Of a stretch of DNA of 64,000 bases, positions 9,047 through 21,746 are shown one piece after another. Numbering within the stretch: the stretch's first letter is position 1; the number at the start of each line of letters is the position of its first letter. A program made the translations under genes and the position numbers. Origin of the DNA: Aeromonas enteropelogenes (GTDB lineage Bacteria; Pseudomonadota; Gammaproteobacteria; Enterobacterales; Aeromonadaceae); contig NZ_CDCG01000018.1 of assembly GCF_000819845.1 (NCBI RefSeq), positions 190,126 to 254,125 of the forward strand, written 5' to 3'. The notes under the pieces were generated by a model that was not told where the DNA came from, made no database searches, and saw only the letters and a list, made by a program, of their open reading frames with translations.

Positions 9047-9352
9047 TTAGGCCACCTGCTTGAGCGGCTTCTCTTTGCGTTTGGTCGGCGCCTGTTCATC
9101 TTCCTTGCCGCCTGTCGTCTGCAGCTTGCCGCCACGCAGCAGGGTTTGCAGTCGATCACGCTGTTCGGCCAGGTAGAATGCCAGGCTCTCTTGCTGCTGC
9201 GGGGCCAGCTCGATGGGGGCCTCTTCCAGCAGCAGCATGAGCTCGTCCGCCGTATCCAGCAGCTTGTCATAGGCATCTGCCTCTTTCTTGCTGGCAAAGG
9301 TCATCTTCTCCACTCCCCCACGAACCACGACATATTTGATTTCGACAGCCAT
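9047..9352 (-). CDS. yebG: SOS-regulated protein YebG
   Basis: The 101-residue product starts MAVEIKYVVVRGGVEKMTF and contains SKKEADAYDKLLDTAD, the diagnostic block of YebG, a small DNA-damage-inducible protein of unknown biochemical role. The C-terminus is Lys/Glu-rich. The frame stays open far upstream, but the family start is ATG 9352. A LexA box lies 34 bp upstream, consistent with SOS control as in E. coli. Confidence 0.93.
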   Translation of the reverse strand: MAVEIKYVVVRGGVEKMTFASKKEADAYDKLLDTADELMLLLEEAPIELAPQQQESLAFYLAEQRDRLQTLLRGGKLQTTGGKEDEQAPTKRKEKPLKQVA

Positions 9353-9402: not shown

Positions 9403-9511
9403 TATTGCAAACAGGGGAAGGGAAAAGTGCGATGGAGGAAGCAGCTATTGACGTCGTTAGATAGTAAAGTGTCATTTGGCTTCTAGGTCTGACTGGTCGG
9501 AGCATGGATTG

Positions 9512-10387
9512 ATGACGATCGTACAACACCTGTTTATCCTGCTGATGGTGGAGGTGCTGTTGCTCGGGGGCATTGGCCGCCTGGTGATGGATCTCCCCTG
9601 GCTGTTGACCCTGCTGTGGGTGGCGCTGACTTTGCTGATGTTGCGCTGCCTGGTGGTGCTGGGCAGCTGGCTGTTCACCCGCTTTTACCCCTCCCCGGCT
9701 ATCAGCCTCTGGGCCAGGGTCAAGATGATGGCTGGCGAGATGCTTGCCTACCTCTACACCTTCACCTGGCTGCTCCCCTTCGAGCCGCTGCTGATGGCCC
9801 CCGATCGGTTGCCACCCTGCCGGCGTCCCGTGTTGCTGGTACATGGTTATGGTTGCAGCCGCGGGATCTGGCGCACCCAGCGAGCCAGACTTGAGGAAGC
9901 TGGCCATGTGGTGGCGACCATCACCCTCTCTCCGCCCTTTGGTCATATCGACGAGATGGTGCCCCTGCTTGCCCGGCGGATTGACCATGTGCTGGCCCAA
10001 ACCGGTGCCAGCCAGCTGGTGCTGATCGGTCACAGCATGGGGGGGCTGGTATGCCGCGACTATCTGGCGGTCGCAGGCGGTGACAAGGTGGCCGCGCTGA
10101 TCACACTGGCGACCCCTCATCAGGGCAGCCAGCTGGCGATGCTGGGGGTGGGTGCCAATGCCCGCGAGATGGAGCCGGGCTCCGGCTGGTTGCAACGCTT
10201 TGCCAGCGTGCCCCTGTGCGTGCCCGGGGTGTCGGTGCGCACCAGCCACGACAACGTGGTGATGCCCCAGGAGCGTCAGCGGCTGGACGGGATGGAAGAT
10301 ATCGAACTGCCCGCTCTCGGCCACCTCTCGCTGCTCTACTCCCGTCGCACCACGGATCTGCTGCAGGGGCTCTTGAAACGCTTCTGA
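9512..10387 (+). CDS. membrane-anchored alpha/beta hydrolase, lipase-like
   Basis: This 291-residue protein has two or three N-terminal hydrophobic segments (about residues 3-70) followed by an alpha/beta hydrolase domain. Visible motifs are the oxyanion HGYGCSRGIW, the nucleophile elbow GHSMGG, and a late His in LGHLSLL. This resembles triacylglycerol lipases/esterases anchored at the inner membrane; substrate unknown. ATG 9512 is chosen for CGGAG (9498-9502) 9 nt upstream; upstream TTG codons are open too. It diverges from yebG and converges on the acyl-CoA reductase gene, so lipid ester hydrolysis is a plausible context. Confidence 0.8.
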   Translation: MTIVQHLFILLMVEVLLLGGIGRLVMDLPWLLTLLWVALTLLMLRCLVVLGSWLFTRFYPSPAISLWARVKMMAGEMLAYLYTFTWLLPFEPLLMAPDRLPPCRRPVLLVHGYGCSRGIWRTQRARLEEAGHVVATITLSPPFGHIDEMVPLLARRIDHVLAQTGASQLVLIGHSMGGLVCRDYLAVAGGDKVAALITLATPHQGSQLAMLGVGANAREMEPGSGWLQRFASVPLCVPGVSVRTSHDNVVMPQERQRLDGMEDIELPALGHLSLLYSRRTTDLLQGLLKRF

Positions 10388-10442: not shown

Positions 10443-12416
10443 CTAGAAGTGGATCCCCTTGATCAGGGTCGAGACCGCGACCTGATCGGCGGTTGCCTTG
10501 GATTGATCGCCATCTTTGGGGTCGGCAAAGGTGCGAAAACTCGTGTTCATGATCACCTGGGCCACTCGCGGGGCCAGAGCATGGACCACCTGACCGAAGA
10601 CCCCGAGGCGGGTCGCCAGCCGTACGTGCTTGTTGATGATGGTGTCGCACACCAGATCGGCCGCCTCTTCCGGCGTCATCATGGGCACCTGGTCATAGAC
10701 CTTGGTCGGCGCCACCATGGGGGTCTTCACCAGCGGCATATTGATGATGGAGAAGTTCACCCCCTTGTCGGCAAACTCGGAGGCCGCGGTGCGCACCCAG
10801 GCGTCGAGGGCCGATTTGGAGGCAACATAGGCCGAGAAGCGCGGCGCATTGGTCAGCACCCCGATGGAGGAGATGTTGATGATGTGCCCCTTCTTCTTCT
10901 CGATCATCCCTGGCAGTACTCCCATGATCACCTTGAGCGCTCCGAAGTAGTTGAGCTGCATGGTGCGCTCAAGATCGTGGAAGCGATCGAAGGAGTCCTC
11001 GATGGAGCGGCGGATGGAGCGACCGGCATTGTTGATGAGGATATCGACCCCGCCATGATCCGCCACGATTTGTTGGGTGATGGCTTCCCCCTGTGCCAGA
11101 TCGGCCAAGTCACCCTGATAGACCTGCAGTGACAGGCCGAGTTCGGCAAATTCGGCCCGGGTCTCGGCAATCTTCTGCTCATCGCGGGCGATGGTCACGA
11201 CGATAGCCCCCGCCCCTGCCAGTTTGCGGGCCGTGGCCCGACCAATGCCGGAAGTGGCGCCGGTGACCAGTACCACCTTGCCCTCGACTCGGCCGCGCAG
11301 GGTGCGGTCGATGAAGAGCTCGGGATCGAGGTGGCGCTCCCAGTAGTCCCACAGACGCCAGGCGTAACTGTGCAGCGGTGGTACCTCGATGTCGGTTCCT
11401 TTCAGTACGCGCTGGGTCTCCCGGCTGTCGAAGCGGGTCGGATAGTTGATGAGGCGAAATACATCCTTGGGCAGCCCCAGATCGGCGATGGCGGCATCGC
11501 GGATGCGGCGCACCGGCGTCATGGTCATCAGCATCGCCATCAGGTGGCGCGGGATAAAGCTGAACAGGGAGGCATTGATGCGGATGGCGGGTTCCGGGGC
11601 GTGGGCGGCGCGGGAGAAGGTGCTGAGCATATCGCCGACCCGCATCGGGTTGGGATCCGTCAGGTGGAAGGTCTTGTTCTCCTCCCCCGCCTGATGAGAG
11701 ATGTGGGCCATGGCATCGACCACGAAGTTGACCGGCACCACGTTGATGCGTCCTCCTTCCACCCCGATGGCGGGCATCCAGGGGGGGAGCAGGCGACGCA
11801 GCTTCTGGATGGTCTTGAAGAAGTAATAGGGGCCGTCAATCTTGTCCATCTCGCCGGTGTTGGCATCCCCTACCACGATCCCGGGCCGGTAGATGCGCCA
11901 GGGCACCATGCACTCCTTGCGCACGATCCCCTCGGCCTCGTGCTTGGTCTGGAAATAGGGCAGATCGAGCTGCTCGGCCTCCTCGAACATGTCTTCCCGA
12001 AACAGGCCGTCGAACAGGCCGGCTGCCGCGATGGAGCTGCAGTGATGAAACTGGCGGGCGCCCAGCTGGGCCGCCAGCTGTACCGCCTGACGGGTGCCGT
12101 CGACGTTGACCTGCTGCTGGACGCCCGCCTTGGCGTTGAGATCATAGATGGCGGCCAGGTGAAAGAAGTGATCGATCCGATCGCGAAGCTCCCCTTGCAG
12201 CGCCTCTGTCACTCCCAGCAGCGGCAGCGTCATATCCCCGAATACCGGAGTAGCTCGTCCTTCATCCACCTGCCAGTAGTCGTGAAGCTCAGGTAATTTA
12301 TCCTGATTGGCGGCGCGCATCAGAAAATAAATGTGATTGTCAGGGGATTGTGCCAGCAATTTCTTAATCAACCTGCGCCCGATAAAACCACTTCCGCCTG
12401 TGATGAAATAGTTCAT
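10443..12416 (-). CDS. two-domain fatty acyl-CoA reductase (fatty alcohol-forming)
   Basis: The 657-residue protein fuses two Rossmann domains. The N-terminal half is a FAR/thioester-reductase-like domain with TGGSGFIG (6-13) and YFQTK (154-158). The C-terminal half is a classical short-chain dehydrogenase with TGATSGIG (385-392), NNAG and YVASK (530-534). Order, length and many blocks (REDMFEEAEQLD, RIYRPGIVVG, FINYPTRFD-like, AGRSIRRS, MPLVKTPM) match the Marinobacter reductase (about 661 aa) that converts long-chain acyl-CoA with NADPH to fatty aldehyde and alcohol for wax esters. It diverges from a phasin gene and shares the locus with a wax synthase. Activity is inferred from this match. 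Confidence 0.88.
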   Translation of the reverse strand: MNYFITGGSGFIGRRLIKKLLAQSPDNHIYFLMRAANQDKLPELHDYWQVDEGRATPVFGDMTLPLLGVTEALQGELRDRIDHFFHLAAIYDLNAKAGVQQQVNVDGTRQAVQLAAQLGARQFHHCSSIAAAGLFDGLFREDMFEEAEQLDLPYFQTKHEAEGIVRKECMVPWRIYRPGIVVGDANTGEMDKIDGPYYFFKTIQKLRRLLPPWMPAIGVEGGRINVVPVNFVVDAMAHISHQAGEENKTFHLTDPNPMRVGDMLSTFSRAAHAPEPAIRINASLFSFIPRHLMAMLMTMTPVRRIRDAAIADLGLPKDVFRLINYPTRFDSRETQRVLKGTDIEVPPLHSYAWRLWDYWERHLDPELFIDRTLRGRVEGKVVLVTGATSGIGRATARKLAGAGAIVVTIARDEQKIAETRAEFAELGLSLQVYQGDLADLAQGEAITQQIVADHGGVDILINNAGRSIRRSIEDSFDRFHDLERTMQLNYFGALKVIMGVLPGMIEKKKGHIINISSIGVLTNAPRFSAYVASKSALDAWVRTAASEFADKGVNFSIINMPLVKTPMVAPTKVYDQVPMMTPEEAADLVCDTIINKHVRLATRLGVFGQVVHALAPRVAQVIMNTSFRTFADPKDGDQSKATADQVAVSTLIKGIHF

Positions 12417-12664
12417 GTTATGGTTCCGCTACTGATTTTACTGTTAGTTGATGTTAGGTATATCACGATTCATATGGGAATCTTCAATACAATTACCGGT
12501 TCGTGAGCCATCCCTAAATTCAGTTAATCGACTATTTCGTTATTAGGTAGAACCCTCTATTTTTTGTCCATAGACTGAAGATGAAAAATCAGTAATGCCT
12601 CAACCGGATTGCCGTTGTCGTTGTCGCCATTACATGTATCTGCCGTTATTCAAGGAGCAATATC
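12417..12664. promoter_or_regulatory. divergent promoter region, reductase/phasin
   Basis: The 248-bp AT-richer spacer between two divergent lipid-storage genes must hold both promoters. An inverted repeat GATTC (12467-12471) / GAATC (12478-12482) is present, but no known operator was recognised. The TetR protein encoded at 14518 is a candidate regulator. Confidence 0.4.
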
Positions 12665-13237
12665 ATGGCTAAAAAACTTAAAGCGCTGGCCGGTTCGGTC
12701 ACCGACAACCAACTCGCCTCCACCATCAAGGAGTCGACCCAGCAGATCTGGTTGGCAGGGCTCGGTGCCTATTCCAAAGCCCAGGAAGAGGGTGGCAAGA
12801 TCTTTGACGCCCTGGTGCAGGAAGGGGAAGCTCTGCAGGCCAAGACCCGCCAGAGCGCCGATGAGAAGATCGCTGCCGTGGCCGACAAGACTGCCGGTAC
12901 CTGGGGCCGTCTGGAGCAAGTGTTCGAGGAGCGCGTCGCCCGTGCGGTGGCCAGCCTCGGGATCCCGACCCGCAAGGACATCGACAAGCTCTCCAAGCGC
13001 ATGGCCGAGCTGACCGAGGTGGTGCAACAACTGCTGGATGCCCAGGAGGGCGAGGCCCCAGCCGCCGAAGCCAAACCCGCTCCAGCCAAAAAGCCGGCCC
13101 CCCGCAAGGCTCCGGTAAAGAAAGCGCCGGTCGCCAAAGCCAAGGAGGCGGTCGCTGAAGAGGCTGCGGATCTGCTCTCCGCCGCCGAAGAGGCGGTAAA
13201 AGAGGTCAAGGCCAAGGCGGAAAGCGTCCTCCCTTGA
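12665..13237 (+). CDS. phasin family (PhaF/PhaI-like) granule protein
   Basis: The 190-residue product has an N-terminal amphipathic phasin domain (STQQIWLAGLGAYSKAQEEG, a hallmark of the PhaI/PhaF family) through about residue 125, with a heptad-rich segment ending LTEVVQQLLDAQ. A Lys/Ala/Pro-rich tail (KPAPAKKPAPRKAP and following) resembles the histone-like DNA-binding tail of PhaF. Phasins coat polyhydroxyalkanoate or neutral-lipid granules and help partition them. ATG 12665 has AAGGAG upstream. It leads the patatin-TetR-repeat protein run. Confidence 0.88.
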   Translation: MAKKLKALAGSVTDNQLASTIKESTQQIWLAGLGAYSKAQEEGGKIFDALVQEGEALQAKTRQSADEKIAAVADKTAGTWGRLEQVFEERVARAVASLGIPTRKDIDKLSKRMAELTEVVQQLLDAQEGEAPAAEAKPAPAKKPAPRKAPVKKAPVAKAKEAVAEEAADLLSAAEEAVKEVKAKAESVLP

Positions 13238-13328
13238 TCCCCTGACGGTGCACTGCTAATCGAGACCGGCCCATGCCCTGCGCTGGGCCGGTATCGTCAT
13301 GAAAAGTGTCATGGAGAGGGAGGCGACT

Positions 13329-14516
13329 ATGAGTACGATCGCGATGGCCCTTGCCGGCGGCGGCCCACTTGGTGGTATCTATGAAGTCGGTGCCTGTGCG
13401 GCGCTCTCCGACAGCATCCGTGGGCTGCGCCTCGAACATGCGGATATCTATGTGGGGGTCAGCTCAGGCGCCGTGGTCGCCTCGGCTCTGGCCAACGGCA
13501 TTTCGCCGGAGAAACTGGTGCGGATCCTGCTCAGTGACGATGCCGGCGAGATCTTCGACCCCGCCACCCTGCTGCGTCCTGCCTTTCGTGAATATGTCGC
13601 GCGCCTTGGCACCATACCGCCGCTGGCGTGGCAGAGCCTGACCCACTATCTGGCCGCCCCCTGGAAACACAGTCTGTTCGAATCCCTGCAGGGGCTCGCC
13701 AAGGCGATCCCGACCGGCCTGTTTGACAACCGTGGGGTGGATCGCATCCTGACCCAGTTCTTCTCCCGTCCCGGTCGCAGCAACGATTTTCGCGAGCTCA
13801 GTAGCCGCCTCTTTGTGGTGGCGACCGAGCTCGATACCGGTCACCCGGTGGCTTTCGGCAGCCCGGGGTACGACGATGTGCCCATTTCGGCCGCGGTGCA
13901 GGCCTCAGCCGCCCTGCCCGGCCTCTTTCCCCCTTCGCTTATCAACGGTCGTCACTATGTGGACGGGGCGCTGATCAAGACGCTGCACGCCTCGGTGGCG
14001 CTACAGGAGGGGGCGGATCTGGTCCTCTGCATCAATCCGCTGGTGCCCTTCGATGCGGACATGGCGACCAGCGAGCCCACCAATCTGGTGGATAGCGGCC
14101 TGCCGGTAGTGCTGGCCCAGACGTTTCGCGCCATCATCCACTCGCGCATGCATGTGGGGATGGACCGTTACCAGCATCAGTATCCCGATGCCGACGTCCT
14201 GCTGTTTGAACCCTCCCCCGCCGATGGCGAGATGTTCTTTACCAATGTGTTCAGTTACCGGGATCGCCGCCGTCTGTGCGAGCACGCCTATCAGCACACC
14301 CGTCGGGATCTCTGGGCGCGGCGCGAGATCCTGGCCCCTGTGCTGGCCCAGCATGGCCTCGAGCTCAATCTGGCGGCGCTGACGGATGAACAGCGCTCCC
14401 TGCTCACCCCCAGCACGGATGCGGTGGCGGCTCTCGACCGCTCGCTCGAGCAGTTGCAGCACTGGCTTACCCGCCGCTATGGCCAGGGGACTCGGCGCCC
14501 CGTGTCAAAGGAGTAA
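13329..14516 (+). CDS. patatin-like phospholipase/lipase
   Basis: The 395-residue protein carries all patatin landmarks: glycine-rich oxyanion loop AGGGPLGG (9-16), nucleophile elbow GVSSGA with Ser45, and DGA with Asp212 forming the Ser-Asp dyad. Patatins hydrolyse acyl esters of phospholipids or neutral lipids. ATG 13329 is preferred because AGGGAGG ends just 6-7 nt before it; an in-frame ATG at 13299 is weaker. The stop is one base from the TetR start, indicating co-transcription. In this locus it is a candidate lipase for stored wax esters or triacylglycerol, or for granule remodelling. Confidence 0.88.
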   Translation: MSTIAMALAGGGPLGGIYEVGACAALSDSIRGLRLEHADIYVGVSSGAVVASALANGISPEKLVRILLSDDAGEIFDPATLLRPAFREYVARLGTIPPLAWQSLTHYLAAPWKHSLFESLQGLAKAIPTGLFDNRGVDRILTQFFSRPGRSNDFRELSSRLFVVATELDTGHPVAFGSPGYDDVPISAAVQASAALPGLFPPSLINGRHYVDGALIKTLHASVALQEGADLVLCINPLVPFDADMATSEPTNLVDSGLPVVLAQTFRAIIHSRMHVGMDRYQHQYPDADVLLFEPSPADGEMFFTNVFSYRDRRRLCEHAYQHTRRDLWARREILAPVLAQHGLELNLAALTDEQRSLLTPSTDAVAALDRSLEQLQHWLTRRYGQGTRRPVSKE

Positions 14517-14517
14517 C

Positions 14518-15159
14518 ATGGAACGCAAACCCAAGCGGCGCACCCGTGAGCGGATCCTGACCACCGCCCTTGCCTGCTTCAACCAGCAGGGTGAGAGTGC
14601 CGTCACCACCACCGCCATCGCGGCCGAGGTGGAGATAAGCCAGGGCAACCTCTACTACCACTTCCACAACAAGGAGGAGATAGTCAACGCCCTGTTCGGC
14701 GAATTCGAGCAGGAGATGACCCGTCTGCTCGATGCGGTCAGCGCCCCCTCCGACGAGCCGGAAGATATCTGGCTCTTCCTGCACCTGATGTTCGAGACCA
14801 TCTGGAAATACCGCTTTTTCTACTACGACATCTCGGCTCTGATGAACGGCTATCACCGGGTCGAGCGGCACTTTTCCGCCCTGCTGCGGCGCAAGGAGCA
14901 GACCGCCGCGGCCATTTGTCACCATCTGCAAACGGTGGGGCTGATGTCGGGCACCTTGCAGCAGATTCAGTCGCTCGCCGTCAATATCGCGCTGGTGGGC
15001 ACATTCTGGATTTCCTATCAACGGGCCCTGCACCCTGGCGAGGACGCCGATATCGCCCGCGGCGTGTTTCAGGTGATGCAGCTGGTGGCCCCCTATTTGC
15101 GCGAGGATGCCCGTGTTCATCTGGACGCCCTCGCCCACCACTACACCAGCAAGGTGTGA
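14518..15159 (+). CDS. TetR-family transcriptional regulator
   Basis: A 213-residue regulator with a typical TetR N-terminal helix-turn-helix at about residues 8-55 (RERILTTALACFNQQGE, TTTAIAAEVEISQGNLYYHFHNKEEI). The C-terminal ligand domain has the aromatic-rich ETIWKYRFFYYDISALMNG block seen in a bacterial repressor subfamily (PF13972-like). ATG 14518 follows the patatin stop by one base with AAAGGAG in front. It probably senses an acyl-CoA or fatty acid and controls the divergent reductase and phasin promoters; both points are inference from position. Confidence 0.9.
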   Translation: MERKPKRRTRERILTTALACFNQQGESAVTTTAIAAEVEISQGNLYYHFHNKEEIVNALFGEFEQEMTRLLDAVSAPSDEPEDIWLFLHLMFETIWKYRFFYYDISALMNGYHRVERHFSALLRRKEQTAAAICHHLQTVGLMSGTLQQIQSLAVNIALVGTFWISYQRALHPGEDADIARGVFQVMQLVAPYLREDARVHLDALAHHYTSKV

Positions 15160-15184
15160 ACCACATGCAACAGGGAGAACATGC

Positions 15185-15985
15185 ATGACAACCTCACAGT
15201 CCCAACTCTCCGATTTCATCCCTTTCCCCTTTCCAGGCGGGGCCTATGAGTACCCGGGCGACGAGCTGGCCGAACAGTGGGCCAGGCTGCATCAGGGGGA
15301 TGCCGAACCCTGGCCCGAAGATCCCAAGGTGCAGGATGCCTGGCGCGCCTACCACGCCGGGGATTTTGCCCGGGCGGTGGCCCTTGGCAACGACGCCGGG
15401 GAGGCAGGGCTCAATGTGGTGAACAAGGCGCTGGTGATCCACGCCAGCTACCTGCTGGAGGACAAGTACGCCAAGCGGGCCGCCTTCGAGCTTGCCGCCA
15501 GCAACGCCGAGAAGCTGCAAAAACGGCAGCCTGACAATGCCAACGCCTGGTATTTTCACGCCTTGGCGCTGGGGCGTTACAGCCAGGTGATCTCCATCTC
15601 CAAGGCGCTTTCCCAAGGGATCGGCGACAAGATAAAGAGCAGCCTGGAGAAGGCCCTGGCGCTTGCCCCCGAGCACGCTGAGGCGCATATCGCCTTCGGG
15701 GCCTGGCATGCGGAGATCGTCGACAAGCTCGGTGCCATGATAGGCGGCCTCACCTACGGGGCGAAAAAGGAGGAGTCAGAGCGCCACTTCCAGGCGGCGC
15801 TGGCCCTTATTCCGGACTCCGCCATCGCCCGTATGGAGTACGCCAATGCCCAGGTGATGCTCTATGGCAAGAGCCGTTTGAAGGCGGCCGAGGCCCTCTA
15901 TGCCGAGGCGGCCAGCTGCGAGCCGGCCGATGCCATGGAACGGCTGGATGTGGAAGCGGCTCGTGATGAACTGGAAGAGGAGTAA
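15185..15985 (+). CDS. helical-repeat (TPR-like) protein of unknown function
   Basis: A 266-residue soluble protein rich in paired helices. Segments such as AKRAAFELAASNAEKLQKRQPDNANAWYFHALALGR, read in parts, and EKALALAPEHAEAHIAFGAWHAEIV look like tetratricopeptide repeats, from about residue 60 to 230. No signal peptide or catalytic motif is visible. ATG 15185 is preceded by AGGGAG. It follows the TetR gene by 25 bp and ends with its own terminator, so it belongs to the phasin-patatin-TetR transcript. A scaffold role on lipid granules is only a guess. Confidence 0.75.
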   Translation: MTTSQSQLSDFIPFPFPGGAYEYPGDELAEQWARLHQGDAEPWPEDPKVQDAWRAYHAGDFARAVALGNDAGEAGLNVVNKALVIHASYLLEDKYAKRAAFELAASNAEKLQKRQPDNANAWYFHALALGRYSQVISISKALSQGIGDKIKSSLEKALALAPEHAEAHIAFGAWHAEIVDKLGAMIGGLTYGAKKEESERHFQAALALIPDSAIARMEYANAQVMLYGKSRLKAAEALYAEAASCEPADAMERLDVEAARDELEEE

Positions 15986-16016
15986 CGATTCCGGATTCCG
16001 TTTAGCGCAAACAAGG

Positions 16017-16047
16017 AGGCCAACCGTCGGGTTGGCCTCTGTTTTTT
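16017..16047 (+). terminator. rho-independent terminator
   Basis: 9-bp stem AGGCCAACC (16017-16025) / GGTTGGCCT (16030-16038), loop GTCG, then CTG and a run of seven T. It ends the phasin-to-TPR transcript before the convergent wax synthase gene. Confidence 0.9.
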
Positions 16048-16074
16048 TAAGCAAAGGGCATGCGAGGTGGCGGC

Positions 16075-17502
16075 TCAGCCCAGCAGCGCATCCAGCCCAT
16101 CCGGATCAAACAACAGCTCGGGATCCATCAACACCAGCAGCAACAGTTGCTCGAATTCCACCGCGAAGCGTTCCACTACGCTGTCGGGATCCGGCACTCT
16201 CAGCTTGTCGGTGATAAGGCCGAGCTGCACCTTGTTGTCGTAGGAGAGGATCGATACCCCGACCCCGATATCGCCGGCCTGGGGTACCCAGAACAGCGGC
16301 TGGCGCAGGCGGGCTCCCGCCAGATAGAGGGTCTGCTGGGGGCCCGGCACATTGGTGATGACGGCACTGGCCTTGGCCGAGAGCAGATCGACCGCCTGCT
16401 GCTGCACCGTCTTCGGGGCCATGCCCAGCACCTCCAGCAAATTGAGCACCACCACAGGCTGCAACGAGCTGCGCAGGGCCTGCATCCGATCGCGCACCGT
16501 GAAGAGCCGCTGCAGCGGGTGTTCGATATCAAGGGGCAGATCCAGGGCCACCAGCCCGAAGCGGTTGCCAAGGGCGCCATCATCGTCTGGCGCTCGCATA
16601 TTGACCGGCACCAGGGCGCGGATCTCAATCTTGTCAGCGTCCTCCCCGTGGGCCTGCAGGTAGTGGCGAAACGCGCCGGCGGTAGCCGCGATAAGCAGAT
16701 CATTGACCGAGCAGCCGAGCACCTTGCCCACCGCCTTGATGTCCGGCAAGGGGATCTGCTGCGACCAGGCCACCCGCTTGGTGCTGCCGGTCTTGCCCTT
16801 GAGGCGGGAGGGGGAATCGTCCGCCAGAGTGGCGATGTTGCACAGCTCGCCCGCCACGTCACGGCCGGTCTTGAGATAATCCACCGCCCTGGTCGGGTGA
16901 GTGAGTACCTCGACGTATTTGGACCAGAGGGTGCCGGTGAGTTTGAGCCCGGCCCGCACCAGGCGGCTGCCTTGATGCGACTCCTCCTCTTCCTCGTTAT
17001 CCTCATCTATGCGGGGTTCGGACAAGGGAGTTGCGGCCGGTTTGGGGGTGTTGTCCATCATGGTGAGCATGGCCTTAACCAGGGAAAAACCGTCCCCCAT
17101 GGCGTGATGGATGCGCACCACCAGCGCCTGACCGCCAAGCGAGGTGTCGGTCAGGTGCATGTCCCACAGGGGGCGCTGCGGGTTGAGGGGGGTGGAGGCA
17201 AGATCGGCCACCAGCTTTTCGAGCTCCAGCTTGCCCGCCTCGCCCGGCAGGATCACCCGTTTGAGATGCTGATCGAGATCGAAGTCGGGATCGTGGCGCC
17301 AGTAGTAGCTCCCCCCTTCCAGCACGGCACGCTGGTGAAAACGTGGTTGCAGGGAAATGGTGTGACGAAGACCTTGTCTCAGGCGCGCTTCGTCGAGCTG
17401 TCCGTCAAACATCAATACCCCGATGATCTGCATCAGGTTGTTGGGTCTGTCCATGCGCAGCCAGGCGGTATCGACGCAGGAGATAAATTCACTCAATGGC
17501 AT
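16075..17502 (-). CDS. wax ester synthase / diacylglycerol acyltransferase (WS/DGAT)
   Basis: The 475-residue product has the WS/DGAT active-site motif HHxxxDG (HHAMGDG, 132-138), the conserved PLWDMHL (111-117) and a late NVPGP. These bifunctional enzymes esterify acyl-CoA with fatty alcohols or diacylglycerol, giving wax esters or triacylglycerol at the membrane/lipid-body surface. ATG 17502 is chosen (MPLSEFISCVDTAWLRMD) with AGGGA about 8 nt upstream; the frame is open 36 codons further. Together with the acyl-CoA reductase 3.6 kb away it would complete wax ester synthesis from acyl-CoA. Confidence 0.92.
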   Translation of the reverse strand: MPLSEFISCVDTAWLRMDRPNNLMQIIGVLMFDGQLDEARLRQGLRHTISLQPRFHQRAVLEGGSYYWRHDPDFDLDQHLKRVILPGEAGKLELEKLVADLASTPLNPQRPLWDMHLTDTSLGGQALVVRIHHAMGDGFSLVKAMLTMMDNTPKPAATPLSEPRIDEDNEEEEESHQGSRLVRAGLKLTGTLWSKYVEVLTHPTRAVDYLKTGRDVAGELCNIATLADDSPSRLKGKTGSTKRVAWSQQIPLPDIKAVGKVLGCSVNDLLIAATAGAFRHYLQAHGEDADKIEIRALVPVNMRAPDDDGALGNRFGLVALDLPLDIEHPLQRLFTVRDRMQALRSSLQPVVVLNLLEVLGMAPKTVQQQAVDLLSAKASAVITNVPGPQQTLYLAGARLRQPLFWVPQAGDIGVGVSILSYDNKVQLGLITDKLRVPDPDSVVERFAVEFEQLLLLVLMDPELLFDPDGLDALLG

Positions 17503-17760
17503 CTTTGTTTCCCTACAAAATGCATTTTCGAGCTCATCAGTCATGCCGAACGGCATATTGGCATGGGGCATGTGCACGGTGAAATGACAATAAAAAGAGA
17601 CGGCTTTCAATTAAACAAAACAAAAAGAGTTGTGTGGTATTCAAGCAGCCTGAGGCAGATTATTTATTCCCTGGTTAAATAATCGGCTCGTTTCAAAAAT
17701 AGATATTCAAACAAGGCGTCTTGCGAAAATTTATTATCCGCGAGGCGCATTGAAAGAGTT

Positions 17761-18096
17761 TTAAACGGATTTCGGGCAAGGGAGCCGATGTTTCACATAA
17801 TCGAGGATCTCCTGCTCCAGCACGCTGCGTACCGGCAACAGCATCAATCCCAGATGCACTTCAAGATGCAGGGAGTCTTCGTCGAGAGTGAGCAGCCCCT
17901 GTACCCCGGAGCCGCGAAAGCGCAGTTCCGTCTCCTCCTCGTTCGCCCATTCGCAGTCAAGCTGGTAGCTCTCCCCCATATCCTGGGCGATGGCTTCGGC
18001 GGCCAGTCGCGCTGCCGCCAGGCCCAGTTCATGCTGGCGGCTGACCTGAATGGTGGAAAGTGGGTTGCTGCCGCTGCGCGAGTCATAGAGGAACAT
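17761..18096 (-). CDS. polyhydroxyalkanoic acid system family protein
   Basis: The 111-residue protein fits the small PHA-granule-associated family (PF09650 type): ELGLAAARLAAEAIAQDMGESYQLDCEW, read in parts, then LRFRGSGVQGLLTLDEDSL and VHLGLMLLPVRSVLEQEI. These genes lie near phasin genes in other proteobacteria, but their biochemistry is unknown. The start is uncertain: ATG 18096 has AGG upstream, and an in-frame ATG at 18144 is also open. It lies 258 bp upstream of the WS/DGAT gene on the same strand, strengthening the storage-granule theme. Confidence 0.75.
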   Translation of the reverse strand: MFLYDSRSGSNPLSTIQVSRQHELGLAAARLAAEAIAQDMGESYQLDCEWANEEETELRFRGSGVQGLLTLDEDSLHLEVHLGLMLLPVRSVLEQEILDYVKHRLPCPKSV

Positions 18097-18322
18097 GGCG
18101 AATACCTGCTGGGAAATGTTTATTGATATTAAACACATGTTCACGACAAGTGAAAGAGGTGTGCCAATAAATGGGACTCACTTAACAGAGTCGGTGGTCT
18201 GCCACTGGGCACCCGGGCTTGCCATTTATTCCCGGCCGCCGGCGCGTTACACTTTCTCTGACGCTATGGCAAAGCCACTGATTTTTCGACCCTTTGTTTA
18301 TCCCCAGGCCAGAGAGCACGAC

Positions 18323-19039
18323 ATGACCCATCAGGATGACGCGAGTATCCAGGAGCGGCTCTATAGCCAGCTCAACCGGGTTGCCTCCCTGCGCGAGCAG
18401 ATCCGCACCCACCCGCAAGACAGGGCGGACCGGGACAGGCTGCGCCAGTGGCAGGCTGACCGGCTGGGGCGCACCCATCAGGATCTGCTGCAAAGCGATC
18501 GTTATGGCCCGGCAGCCGAGTTCTTCCTGACCGATCTCTATGGCCCCGGGGATTGTGCCCGCCGGGATGCGGACGTGATGCGGGTGATGCCGACCGCCGA
18601 GCGTTTCTTGCCCGAGTCCGGCCTCAAGGTACTGGCCCAGGCGATCGAGCTTGATGCCCTCTCGGAGGAGCTCGACTATCTGATGGTAGTGGCGCTGCGC
18701 CGCATCGATGGCATCGACCCCATCAGCGCGACCCATTACGCCATCGCCTATCGCGCCGTGGGAGAAAGGGCGCGGCGGGAGCAGCAGATTGCGCTGGTGG
18801 GCGAACTGGGCGCGACCCTGGATCGACTGGCCCGAAAGCCCCTGCTCGGTACCACCCTCAAACTGGTTTCCGGACCTGCCCATCTGGCGGGGCTTGGCGA
18901 GCTCTTCTCCTTCGTCGAGCGCGGCTATCGGGTCTGCCACCAGATGGGGCGGGCCGATGAGTTTCTGGCCACCATTGCCAGCCGCGAGACGGCGATCATG
19001 GACGCCCTGTTTGCCGGGGATACTGACGTGCTGACCTAA
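18323..19039 (+). CDS. conserved protein with FFLxDLYGP motif, function unknown
   Basis: A 238-residue soluble, mostly helical, Arg-rich protein. The block PAAEFFLTDLYGPGDCARRDADVMRVMP, read in parts, resembles a family named after an FFLEELY-type motif; no enzymatic function is known to me. ATG 18323 is taken as start; an upstream ATG (18266) in frame is possible, as the ribosome-binding site is weak. It diverges from the PHA-system gene and converges on prpD. Its place beside granule genes suggests a lipid-storage link, unproven. Confidence 0.7.
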   Translation: MTHQDDASIQERLYSQLNRVASLREQIRTHPQDRADRDRLRQWQADRLGRTHQDLLQSDRYGPAAEFFLTDLYGPGDCARRDADVMRVMPTAERFLPESGLKVLAQAIELDALSEELDYLMVVALRRIDGIDPISATHYAIAYRAVGERARREQQIALVGELGATLDRLARKPLLGTTLKLVSGPAHLAGLGELFSFVERGYRVCHQMGRADEFLATIASRETAIMDALFAGDTDVLT

Positions 19040-19162: not shown

Positions 19163-20608
19163 TCAGATCACCAGCAGATCCATGAAGGTGTGGACCGGGG
19201 TGCTGGCCAGCTGTTTGCCATCCTGGCAGAGGGCGAGGATCTCCCCTACCCGCTTGGCCGGGAAACGGGTCGCCAGATTGTGGCGGAATTTCTCCACCAA
19301 CAGCGGGATCCCCTCCTCACGGCGGCGGCGGTGACCGACCGGATACTCCACCTCCACCTTGGCGGTGTGAGTACCATTCTTGAAGAACACCTGGATGGCG
19401 TTGGCAATGGAGCGCTTGTCCGCTTCAAGATATTCGCGGCTATAACGTTTGTCCTCCTGCACCACCATCTTGTCTCTCAACGCATCGATGCGGGGATCGG
19501 CGGCGATATCGTCCTCGTAATCCTCGGCGATGAGGCGACCGAAGATGAGGGGTACCGCCACCATGTACTGCAGGCAGTGATCCCGATCCGCCGGGTTGTT
19601 GAGGGCGCCCACCTTGCTGATGATGCGAATGGCCGACTCATGGGTGGTGAGCTCGATGCGGTCGATCTCATCCAGCCGCCCCTTCACCTCGCCATGGAGC
19701 TTCATGGCGCACTCCACCGCGGTCTGGGCATGGAATTCGGCCGGATAGGAGATCTTGAACAGCACGTTCTCCATCACATAGCTGCCATACCCCTGATGAA
19801 GGGCGAACTGGTTACCCTTGAACAGGACGTCGTAGAACCCCCACTTGGGGGCGCTCAGCACGCCGGGATAACCCATCTCGCCGCTCATGGTGATGAGGGC
19901 CAGGCGCACCGCGCGGGATGTCGCATCCCCCGCCGCCCAGCTCTTGCGCGAACCTGCGTTCGGCGCGTGGCGATAGGTGCGCAGGCTCTGGCCATCGACC
20001 CAGGCCTGGGAGACGGCATCGATCACCTGATCCCGGGTGCCCCCCAGCATGTGGGTCACCACGGCGGTGCTTGCTACCTTGACCAGCACCACGTGATCCA
20101 GGCCCACCCGGTTGAAGGAGTTCTCAAGCGCCAGCACACCTTGAATTTCATGGGCCTTCACCATGGCCACCAGCACATCGGCCATGGTCAGCGGCGCCTT
20201 GCCCTCGGCCACGCGGGTACGGGAGAGCCAGTCGGCGATGGCCAGGATCCCCCCCAGATTGTCAGAGGGGTGTCCCCACTCGGCAGCGAGCCAGGTGTCG
20301 TTGTAGTCGAGCCAGCGAATGATGGCGCCGATATCCCAGGCCGCCTTGACCGGATCGAGGCAGAACTGGGTGCCGGGCACCCGGGCACCAAAGGGGACGA
20401 CAGTACCGGGCACTATGGGGCCCAGGTGCTTGGTACACTCGGGAAAGCGCAGGGCCAGCAAGCCACAGCCCAGGGTATCCATCAGGCAGTGGCGGGCGGT
20501 GTCGAGGGCCGCTTGGCTGGTAATGGGGTGGCTGCAGACGTAATCGGCAATATCGACCAGTACCTGGTCAGGATCGGGTCTGTGGTTGACGTCGACGTTG
20601 GCGGACAT
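19163..20608 (-). CDS. prpD: 2-methylcitrate dehydratase PrpD
   Basis: The 481-residue MmgE/PrpD-family protein dehydrates 2-methylcitrate to 2-methyl-cis-aconitate in the methylcitrate cycle, which oxidises propionyl-CoA. It aligns along its length with E. coli PrpD (483 aa), for example [31 protein letters not shown] and [18 protein letters not shown] 20608 is chosen (MSANVDV) with AAGGA upstream; it starts 10 bp after prpC. Use of PrpD instead of AcnD/PrpF follows the enterobacterial layout. No prpE or prpR is adjacent. Confidence 0.96.
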
Positions 20609-20618
20609 CGTGATTTCC

Positions 20619-21746
20619 TTATCGTTGTTGTAGAGAGACAAAATGACGGGGGGCCGGGCCGACGTAATCGGCGCTCGGGCGGATGATCCGGTTGTGCTCG
20701 CGCTGCTCCATCACGTGGGCGCACCAGCCGGTGACCCGCGAACAGACGAAGATGGGGGTGAACAGCTTGGTCGGGATCCCCATGTAGTGATAGGCGCTGG
20801 CATGGAAGAAGTCGGCATTGGGGAAGAGCTCTTTTTCTTCCCACATCACCTTCTCCGCCTCGCAGGAGACGCGGTAGAGACGATCATCACCGACGGCTTG
20901 GGCCAGTTGCTCCGCCCACCCCTTGATAATGACGTTGCGCGGATCCGAGGTGCGATAGACCGCATGGCCAAAGCCCATGATCTTCTCCTTGGCTGCAAGT
21001 TTAGCCAGCAGCTCGCGTCTGGCCTGGGCCTCGTCCTGCCAATCCTCGATCATCGCCATGGCCGCCTCGTTGGCGCCACCGTGCAGGGGCCCACGCAGGG
21101 TGCCGATGGCGGCGGTGATGCAGGAGAAAATGTCGGAGAGGGTCGAGGCGCAGACCCGGGCCGCGAAAGTAGAAGCGTTGAATTCGTGCTCGGCATAGAG
21201 GATGAGGGAGACGTGCATGACGCGCCGCTCCAGCTCGCTCGGGGCTTTCTGGTGCAACAGCGCCAGGAAGTGGCCGCCGATGCACTCCTCGTCGGTATCC
21301 AGTGGGATGCGCATGCCTTCGTGGCTGAACTTGTACCAGTAGATGAGAATGCCCGGGAAGGCCGCCAGCAGGCGATCGGCCACCTCGTGTTCACGTTCGA
21401 AGCCATCTTCCGGCTCCAGATCTCCCAGCATGGAGCAACCGGTGCGCAGCACGTCCATGGGATGGGCATCGGCGGGAATGCGCTCGAGCACCTCCAGCAG
21501 CGCGGCTGGCAGGGCGCGCAGGCGACGCAGTTCGCGTTTGTACTCCTGCAGTTGCTGCTTGCTCGGCAGTTCGCCCTTGAGCAGCAGGTAGGCGACCTCC
21601 TCGAACTGGGCGTTGTCGGCCAGCTCCTTGATGTCGTAACCGCGATAGGTGAGCCCGGTGCCGCTCTTGCCCACGGTGCAGATGCTGGTCTCCCCCGCAC
21701 TCTGTCCGCGCAGGCCGGCGCCACCCAACGGTTTTTGCTGTCCCAT
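20619..21746 (-). CDS. prpC: 2-methylcitrate synthase PrpC
   Basis: The 375-residue citrate-synthase family enzyme condenses propionyl-CoA with oxaloacetate. Conserved active-site blocks are visible: [11 protein letters not shown] and [13 protein letters not shown] (catalytic histidines) and [16 protein letters not shown] (catalytic Asp region). Length equals typical PrpC and is shorter than the citrate synthase GltA. ATG 21746 has GGAGG in front. It is the middle gene of prpBCD, 12 bp after prpB and 10 bp before prpD. Confidence 0.95.

Follow-up and report, generated by a model that had tools for sequence, protein, structure and literature searches.

A nine-gene cluster in Aeromonas enteropelogenes as a candidate neutral-lipid storage module shared with Betaproteobacteria

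Bacterial wax esters are made in Marinobacter by a pathway that joins a two-domain fatty acyl-CoA reductase to a wax ester synthase/diacylglycerol acyltransferase (WS/DGAT, or WS), while in Aeromonas the discussion of storage lipids usually centers on polyhydroxyalkanoate (PHA), whose granule system comprises phaP/phaF phasins, PHA_gran_rgn proteins and the synthase PhaC. Here, we analyzed a block of nine genes in a 64,000-nucleotide stretch of Aeromonas enteropelogenes DNA (contig NZ_CDCG01000018.1, positions 190,126 to 254,125; hereafter, the window) that resembles both systems. The block contains the same two enzyme families as the Marinobacter pathway, and their intact motifs suggest the same chemistry. 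Unlike in that pathway, the enzymes are clustered with a phasin, lipases, a regulator and a tetratricopeptide repeat (TPR) protein, and share a DNA dyad. With the PHA granule system the block has in common the phasin (PF05597) and PF09650 families, but it holds no PHA synthase gene.

Part of such a gene set has been reported from Burkholderiales metagenomes, where two scaffolds carry ws/dgat with a short-chain dehydrogenase/reductase (SDR) homologous to the Marinobacter reductase and a PHA-system protein, a third ws/dgat scaffold has a phasin, and an acyl-CoA binding protein is also named (PMC10351704, PLoS One 2023). The main text of that study contains no occurrence of Aeromonas, patatin or TetR (0 each), and its Burkholderiales section describes neither the dyad nor the TPR protein. 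In the open-access literature, with subscription papers and preprints outside the scope, we found no wax-ester locus in Aeromonas and neither the TPR protein nor the dyad; the two papers found to contain both Aeromonas and wax ester synthase mention the genus for PHA only, and no carrier step for bacterial wax-ester making was found described in the literature searched. The module was thus partly noted in Burkholderiales in 2023 and the kind of pathway is already known, whereas the dyad that recurs across the cluster, the TPR protein as a candidate lipid carrier and the PHA-type coat proteins without a PHA synthase are new. An initial annotation of the window knew of no described system of this composition in the genus. 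The cluster is not peculiar to Aeromonas, being found also in Betaproteobacteria and mostly in the same order.

Gene content and inheritance within Aeromonas

We consider it quite probable, from sequence comparison, that the nine genes lying between yebG (9050-9352) and prpD (19166-20641) form a horizontally acquired, regulated neutral-lipid storage module, for which wax ester is the likeliest product (Table 1). Eight of the genes had been named in the initial annotation, and all eight were recovered at the same positions. Its left edge at 10443 was, however, one gene short, as the hydrolase, which was overlooked because it lies just left of that range, also belongs to the block.

Our genus sample consisted of 37 genomes, of which 20 bear the block and 17 do not. 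The reductase was found in 20 of the 37, WS over the cut-off in 19 (genome G012 adds a fragment where its contig ends, and a further 20-bit match in G027 was left uncounted), and the 266-residue TPR protein in 19, with G012 broken at that point. None of the 17 block-less genomes contained WS over the cut-off. All nine genes are present in 18 of the 20 loci, the other two (G012 and G028) stopping at contig borders, and wherever an Aeromonas locus is long enough to include the hydrolase, this gene lies within the block. Within the genus, the block is thus all-or-none, and the co-conservation in other genomes that the initial annotation proposed as a check does exist. In 16 of the 20 loci the flanks are yebG and prpD, with G009 and G029 having other flanks. 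Four of the block-less genomes have an empty site, where prpD is kept, yebG lies 137-246 bp away and no block remnant is found between the two, while the remaining 13 also lack prpD. Overall, prpD is absent from 14 of the 37 genomes, 13 of these being block-less. In one locus (L122:2535-2795), the yebG adjoining the block looks interrupted by one stop.

When placed on a tree from two flanking genes, presence and absence of the block require four changes, at least two of them on well supported branches; this tree covers 33 of the 37 genomes, four being dropped for want of a usable XerC-like sequence. Mean dN/dS was 0.06-0.16 for the nine block genes, as compared to 0.05-0.14 for four flanking genes, and it should be noted that these values derive from 7-8 comparisons per block gene and that dS is near saturation for some. 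As the block is present in 20 of the 37 genomes and dN/dS is low, it is not a chance assembly. Among named relatives, those nearest to the reductase come from nine records of Aeromonas, with 78-91% identity (A. allosaccharophila, 91%).

The enzymes appear intact. The reductase matches PRK07201 with 962 bits over 657/657 model positions, its halves matching NAD_binding_4 (1.2e-45) and adh_short (5.5e-50), and the two YxxxK pairs, like the two glycine motifs, are kept in 91/91 aligned rows. Against an unconfirmed version of the Marinobacter Maqu_2220 sequence, identity is 56.6% over 663 columns. WS/DGAT scores 382 bits against TIGR02946, above the curated cut-off of 309.95, and the HHxxxDG motif is kept in 55/55 rows, although the TTG start as listed may lie upstream of the true start. 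In the patatin-like protein, GxSxG and DG are kept in 64/64 rows, and in the hydrolase, HSMGG in 36/36. The latter starts with a hydrophobic segment, which we read as a membrane segment, followed by HGYG and GHSMGG, and is a probable neutral-lipid hydrolase. The TetR start overlaps the stop of the patatin gene, and PHA_gran_rgn and WS share a strand, with PHA_gran_rgn as the upstream gene.

Table 1 Features of the block in the window, with positions counted from the first nucleotide of the window.
Feature	Position	Strand	Evidence or remark
Alpha/beta hydrolase (lipase-like)	9476-10387	+	Abhydrolase_1 7.7e-11
Two-domain fatty acyl-CoA reductase, PRK07201 type	10443-12416	-	PRK07201, NAD_binding_4, adh_short
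16-bp dyad TAGGTAGAACCCTCTA (TAG-N10-CTA), proposed operator	12544-12559	+	Between divergent reductase and phasin
PhaF-type phasin, lipid-body coat candidate	12665-13237	+	PF05597 1.5e-35
Patatin-like lipase/phospholipase	13329-14516	+	PF01734 8.3e-29
TetR-family regulator	14512-15159	+	PF13972 2.1e-40, TetR_N 6.1e-14
TPR protein, 266 aa, cytosolic, candidate lipid carrier	15185-15985	+	Predicted fold
WS/DGAT, wax ester synthase/diacylglycerol acyltransferase, HHAMGDG	16075-17610	-	TIGR02946
PHA_gran_rgn small protein	17764-18096	-	PF09650 4.2e-24
FFLEELY-motif (FFLEE) protein	18320-19039	+	NF047641 3e-70

Reductase-synthase pairing and relatives outside the genus

In a sample of 369 genomes from the class, the reductase was found in 12 and a WS match in 21 (19 over the cut-off), with both in 10 (Fisher p 1.9e-12, own genome included and kinship ignored); in this search, only the first candidates per genome were scored. 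A similar pairing is seen where the two genes are separated. Of 34 non-Aeromonas reductase loci without a local WS, 30 were searched (four short contigs were excluded), and in 29 of these reductase-bearing genomes WS was found elsewhere, 28 times over the cut-off. Among 20 such stand-alone WS regions, taken from 47 listed WS matches, a PHA_gran_rgn gene lies near WS in 13, while four contain no more than a distant paralogue (24-28%). In genome G042, the WS, TPR and TetR genes are together on one contig and the reductase, phasin and patatin genes on another. Locus L158 (genome G276) may be a reduced version of the module; it has reductase, TetR, phasin and FFLEE, and at E 1e-40 its genome gave no match to WS. 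In another family of the same order, two genomes carry a distant WS/DGAT (21-22% identity) near the same type of TetR and a PhaF-type phasin (L161:2837-9018 and L162); these loci lack a reductase, L161 also has a patatin-like open reading frame (ORF), and they are perhaps a parallel neutral-lipid locus.

Comparison of reductase loci was based on the best 80 of a longer match list, comprising 9 from Aeromonas and 71 others. By loose matches, the partners near the reductase are the phasin (78 loci), TetR (69), TPR protein (64), patatin (53), WS (46), PHA_gran_rgn (35), FFLEE (28) and hydrolase (27), and it should be considered that many of these loci are truncated. Of 25 non-Aeromonas loci holding all six core genes, 24 have one common order and strand set, and in a Crenobacter locus (L018), eight of the nine are found, arranged as in Aeromonas. 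In the reductase tree (FastTree, local support), Aeromonas groups with Crenobacter (100) within an otherwise betaproteobacterial set. As the Aeromonas reductase nests there and the same genes recur, the cluster was probably acquired from Betaproteobacteria, a transfer into an Aeromonas ancestor being the likely course, and the relatives outside the genus suggest that the cluster travelled as a unit. No compositional sign of recent foreign origin was seen, the GC content being 61.1% in the block, 58.7% in the window and 62-63% in prpD/prpC. The cluster fades outside Aeromonas and Betaproteobacteria: among 11 loci of the class besides our own, one has four partners, one has three, one has TetR alone and eight have none. 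Among other recurrent neighbours, a sugar-nucleotide gene group is found in about 19-22 of the 71 non-Aeromonas loci, and the remaining recurrent ORFs we read as antisense shadow ORFs.

The TAG-N10-CTA dyad and the TPR protein

The dyad TAGGTAGAACCCTCTA in the intergenic space of the divergent reductase/phasin pair is identical in the 19 other Aeromonas loci, and is thus present in 20/20. Outside the genus, where the space between the two genes could be extracted for 58 of the 71 loci (13 could not), the frame TAG-N10-CTA is present in 57, as compared to a mean of 1.7 and a maximum of 5 of the 58 in 50 letter shuffles. Spacers of N4-8 and N11-15 were at chance level, N9 was found in 16 loci, and all 24 doubled dyads lie 22 bp apart. 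It is the frame alone that is common; three sub-strings of the Aeromonas dyad, when sought as exact strings in the betaproteobacterial loci, gave 0/58, 0/58 and 1/58. Upstream of FFLEE, the frame also occurs at a distance of 35-73 bp in 13 of 18 non-Aeromonas loci; it was found upstream of the hydrolase in 2 of 18 and, 84-98 bp away, upstream of the WS match in 2 of the 20 stand-alone WS regions, and was not found upstream of patatin, TetR or TPR in non-Aeromonas loci. Overall, the upstream regions of reductase/phasin and FFLEE, roughly 16 kb in total, contain 94 dyads, versus 35 in 1.39 Mb elsewhere in the same loci. When up to three mismatches were allowed, the known site was the single match both in the window and in the genome; as the reversed control pattern gave six matches, this says no more than that a second good copy is absent.

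TetR is the natural candidate for the reader of the dyad. The sole testable locus without the dyad (L054) also lacks TetR, and in G042 the dyad stays at the reductase and phasin (L052) while TetR sits with WS on the other contig (L168). An inverted repeat, GATTATTTATTCCCTGGTTAAATAATC, lies upstream of WS (window 17658-17684).

The 266-residue protein matches neither Pfam nor NCBIfam at E 0.001, but its AlphaFold2 model is a TPR fold of high confidence (pLDDT 95.3). The nearest folds are PTPIP51/RMDN3 (7cc7), TPAT (8g52), BstC (7t1s) and TatT (3u64), so that the predicted protein shares its fold with RMDN/PTPIP51-type lipid-carrier TPR proteins, and we consider it a candidate lipid carrier. One should take into consideration that it falls below the Pfam RMD1-3 cut-off (18.1 vs 26.7 bits) and that RMD1-3 matches 22 of 41 relatives at E<=1 (best 8.2e-7), with generic TPR models matching more. 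A tie to PTPIP51 by sequence is weak, with a phmmer E of 0.0014 and a profile E of 0.0044, behind engineered TPR proteins at 2.4e-10. The FFLEE protein gave an all-helical model (pLDDT 89.4) with no Foldseek match below E 0.2 (best E 0.22), which is not evidence of a new fold.

Product of the block and rival readings

In the scheme that we infer for the block, the reductase would convert long-chain acyl-CoA to fatty alcohol, and WS/DGAT would use a second acyl-CoA to acylate either this alcohol, yielding wax ester, or diacylglycerol, yielding triacylglycerol. Phasin and PHA_gran_rgn protein would coat the droplet, the patatin and the alpha/beta hydrolase would free the stored lipid, and the TPR protein would carry a lipid intermediate or acyl group in the cytosol. 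TetR would bind the TAG-N10-CTA dyad and control the reductase and phasin in both directions. Wax-ester or other neutral-lipid storage, as already proposed in the initial annotation, is thus retained as the best reading, supported by co-inheritance, the pairing of reductase and synthase, the intact motifs, and the retention of the phasin and PHA-system protein in 12 species that gave no PHA synthase match; its "storage organelle" and the identity of the product are still a matter of inference.

Several observations weigh against this account. Two of the 12 class genomes with a reductase have no WS match, and in most class loci the reductase has no partner gene beside it (8/11). Upstream of WS and PHA_gran_rgn, the dyad was found in 0/36 and 0/25 clusters, and in Aeromonas, it was found upstream of WS, PHA_gran_rgn and FFLEE in 0/18, 0/19 and 0/19 loci, respectively, so that only a part of the module would come under its control. 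The dyad is also kept in seven further loci that show no TetR in the stretch covered, three of these being short contigs. Moreover, eight block genomes also carry PhaC, and a PHA role is possible there.

Enzymes of the WS/DGAT family can also make triacylglycerol, and this established bifunctionality raises the alternative that the block mainly makes triacylglycerol, the alcohol or aldehyde from the reductase being used otherwise. The two class genomes with a reductase but no WS match, together with the 11 of 21 WS genomes that lack a reductase, fit such a division, but reductase and WS were gained or lost together in the genus (20 and 17 of 37) and in the class sample they co-occur far more often than chance would give. 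We thus hold triacylglycerol as the main product to be unlikely. Still less probable, in our view, is a reductase that is an SDR of other specificity (acting, for example, on envelope or signalling lipids), with a WS ester that is not storage wax. PRK07201 is indeed named merely "SDR family oxidoreductase", and among solved structures no full-length relative of the reductase was found, only single SDR domains; the match to the model is, however, full-length and includes the male-sterility domain, and we give this alternative the least weight of all.

The two genes of PHA-named families call for considering an accessory PHA-granule locus, in which the phasin and PHA_gran_rgn protein serve PHA and the other genes feed or mobilise it. 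With PhaC_N (PF07167) at E 0.001 as the test for a PHA synthase, 20 of the 37 Aeromonas genomes gave a match. Eight of these bear the block, the window's own genome among them, while 12 do not; no match was found in 12 of the 20 block genomes, with the A. sobria type strain as one example, or in 5 of the 17 block-less ones. This table (8/12/12/5) is at most suggestive and not significant (Fisher p 0.10), and complementarity of block and PhaC on the genus tree comes down to two independent pairs and gives no independent support. Matches in two pieces were seen in G005 and G020, possibly due to frameshifts or assembly faults. In the window's own genome, PhaC is on another contig, in a region (L163) without block genes. 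As 12 of the 20 block genomes show no PHA synthase match, the lipid that the phasin and PHA_gran_rgn protein serve is presumably not PHA. On the same count, we reject PHA granules as the main account of the block, and, with most block-less genomes (12/17) having PhaC, consider an accessory PHA role improbable.

A bolder form of the storage module can be put forward only tentatively, and we regard it as rather doubtful in full. Here, the cluster would be a mobile wax-body regulon of Betaproteobacteria and Aeromonas, in which TetR senses lipid supply and, through the dyad, switches the reductase, the phasin and, in many Betaproteobacteria, the FFLEE protein. PHA-type coat proteins would sit on wax droplets in cells that lack PHA synthase, and a cytosolic TPR carrier resembling eukaryotic PTPIP51 would supply the synthase with fatty alcohol or acyl lipid taken from the reductase.

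If the storage module is as we propose, about half of the sampled Aeromonas species can store wax or oil, 12 of the 20 without a PHA synthase match, and phasins would gain a testable role outside PHA. The dyad and TetR would offer a concrete operator/regulator pair for bacterial neutral-lipid storage, and the TPR protein a candidate carrier of lipids in the cytosol, testable with a single purified protein.

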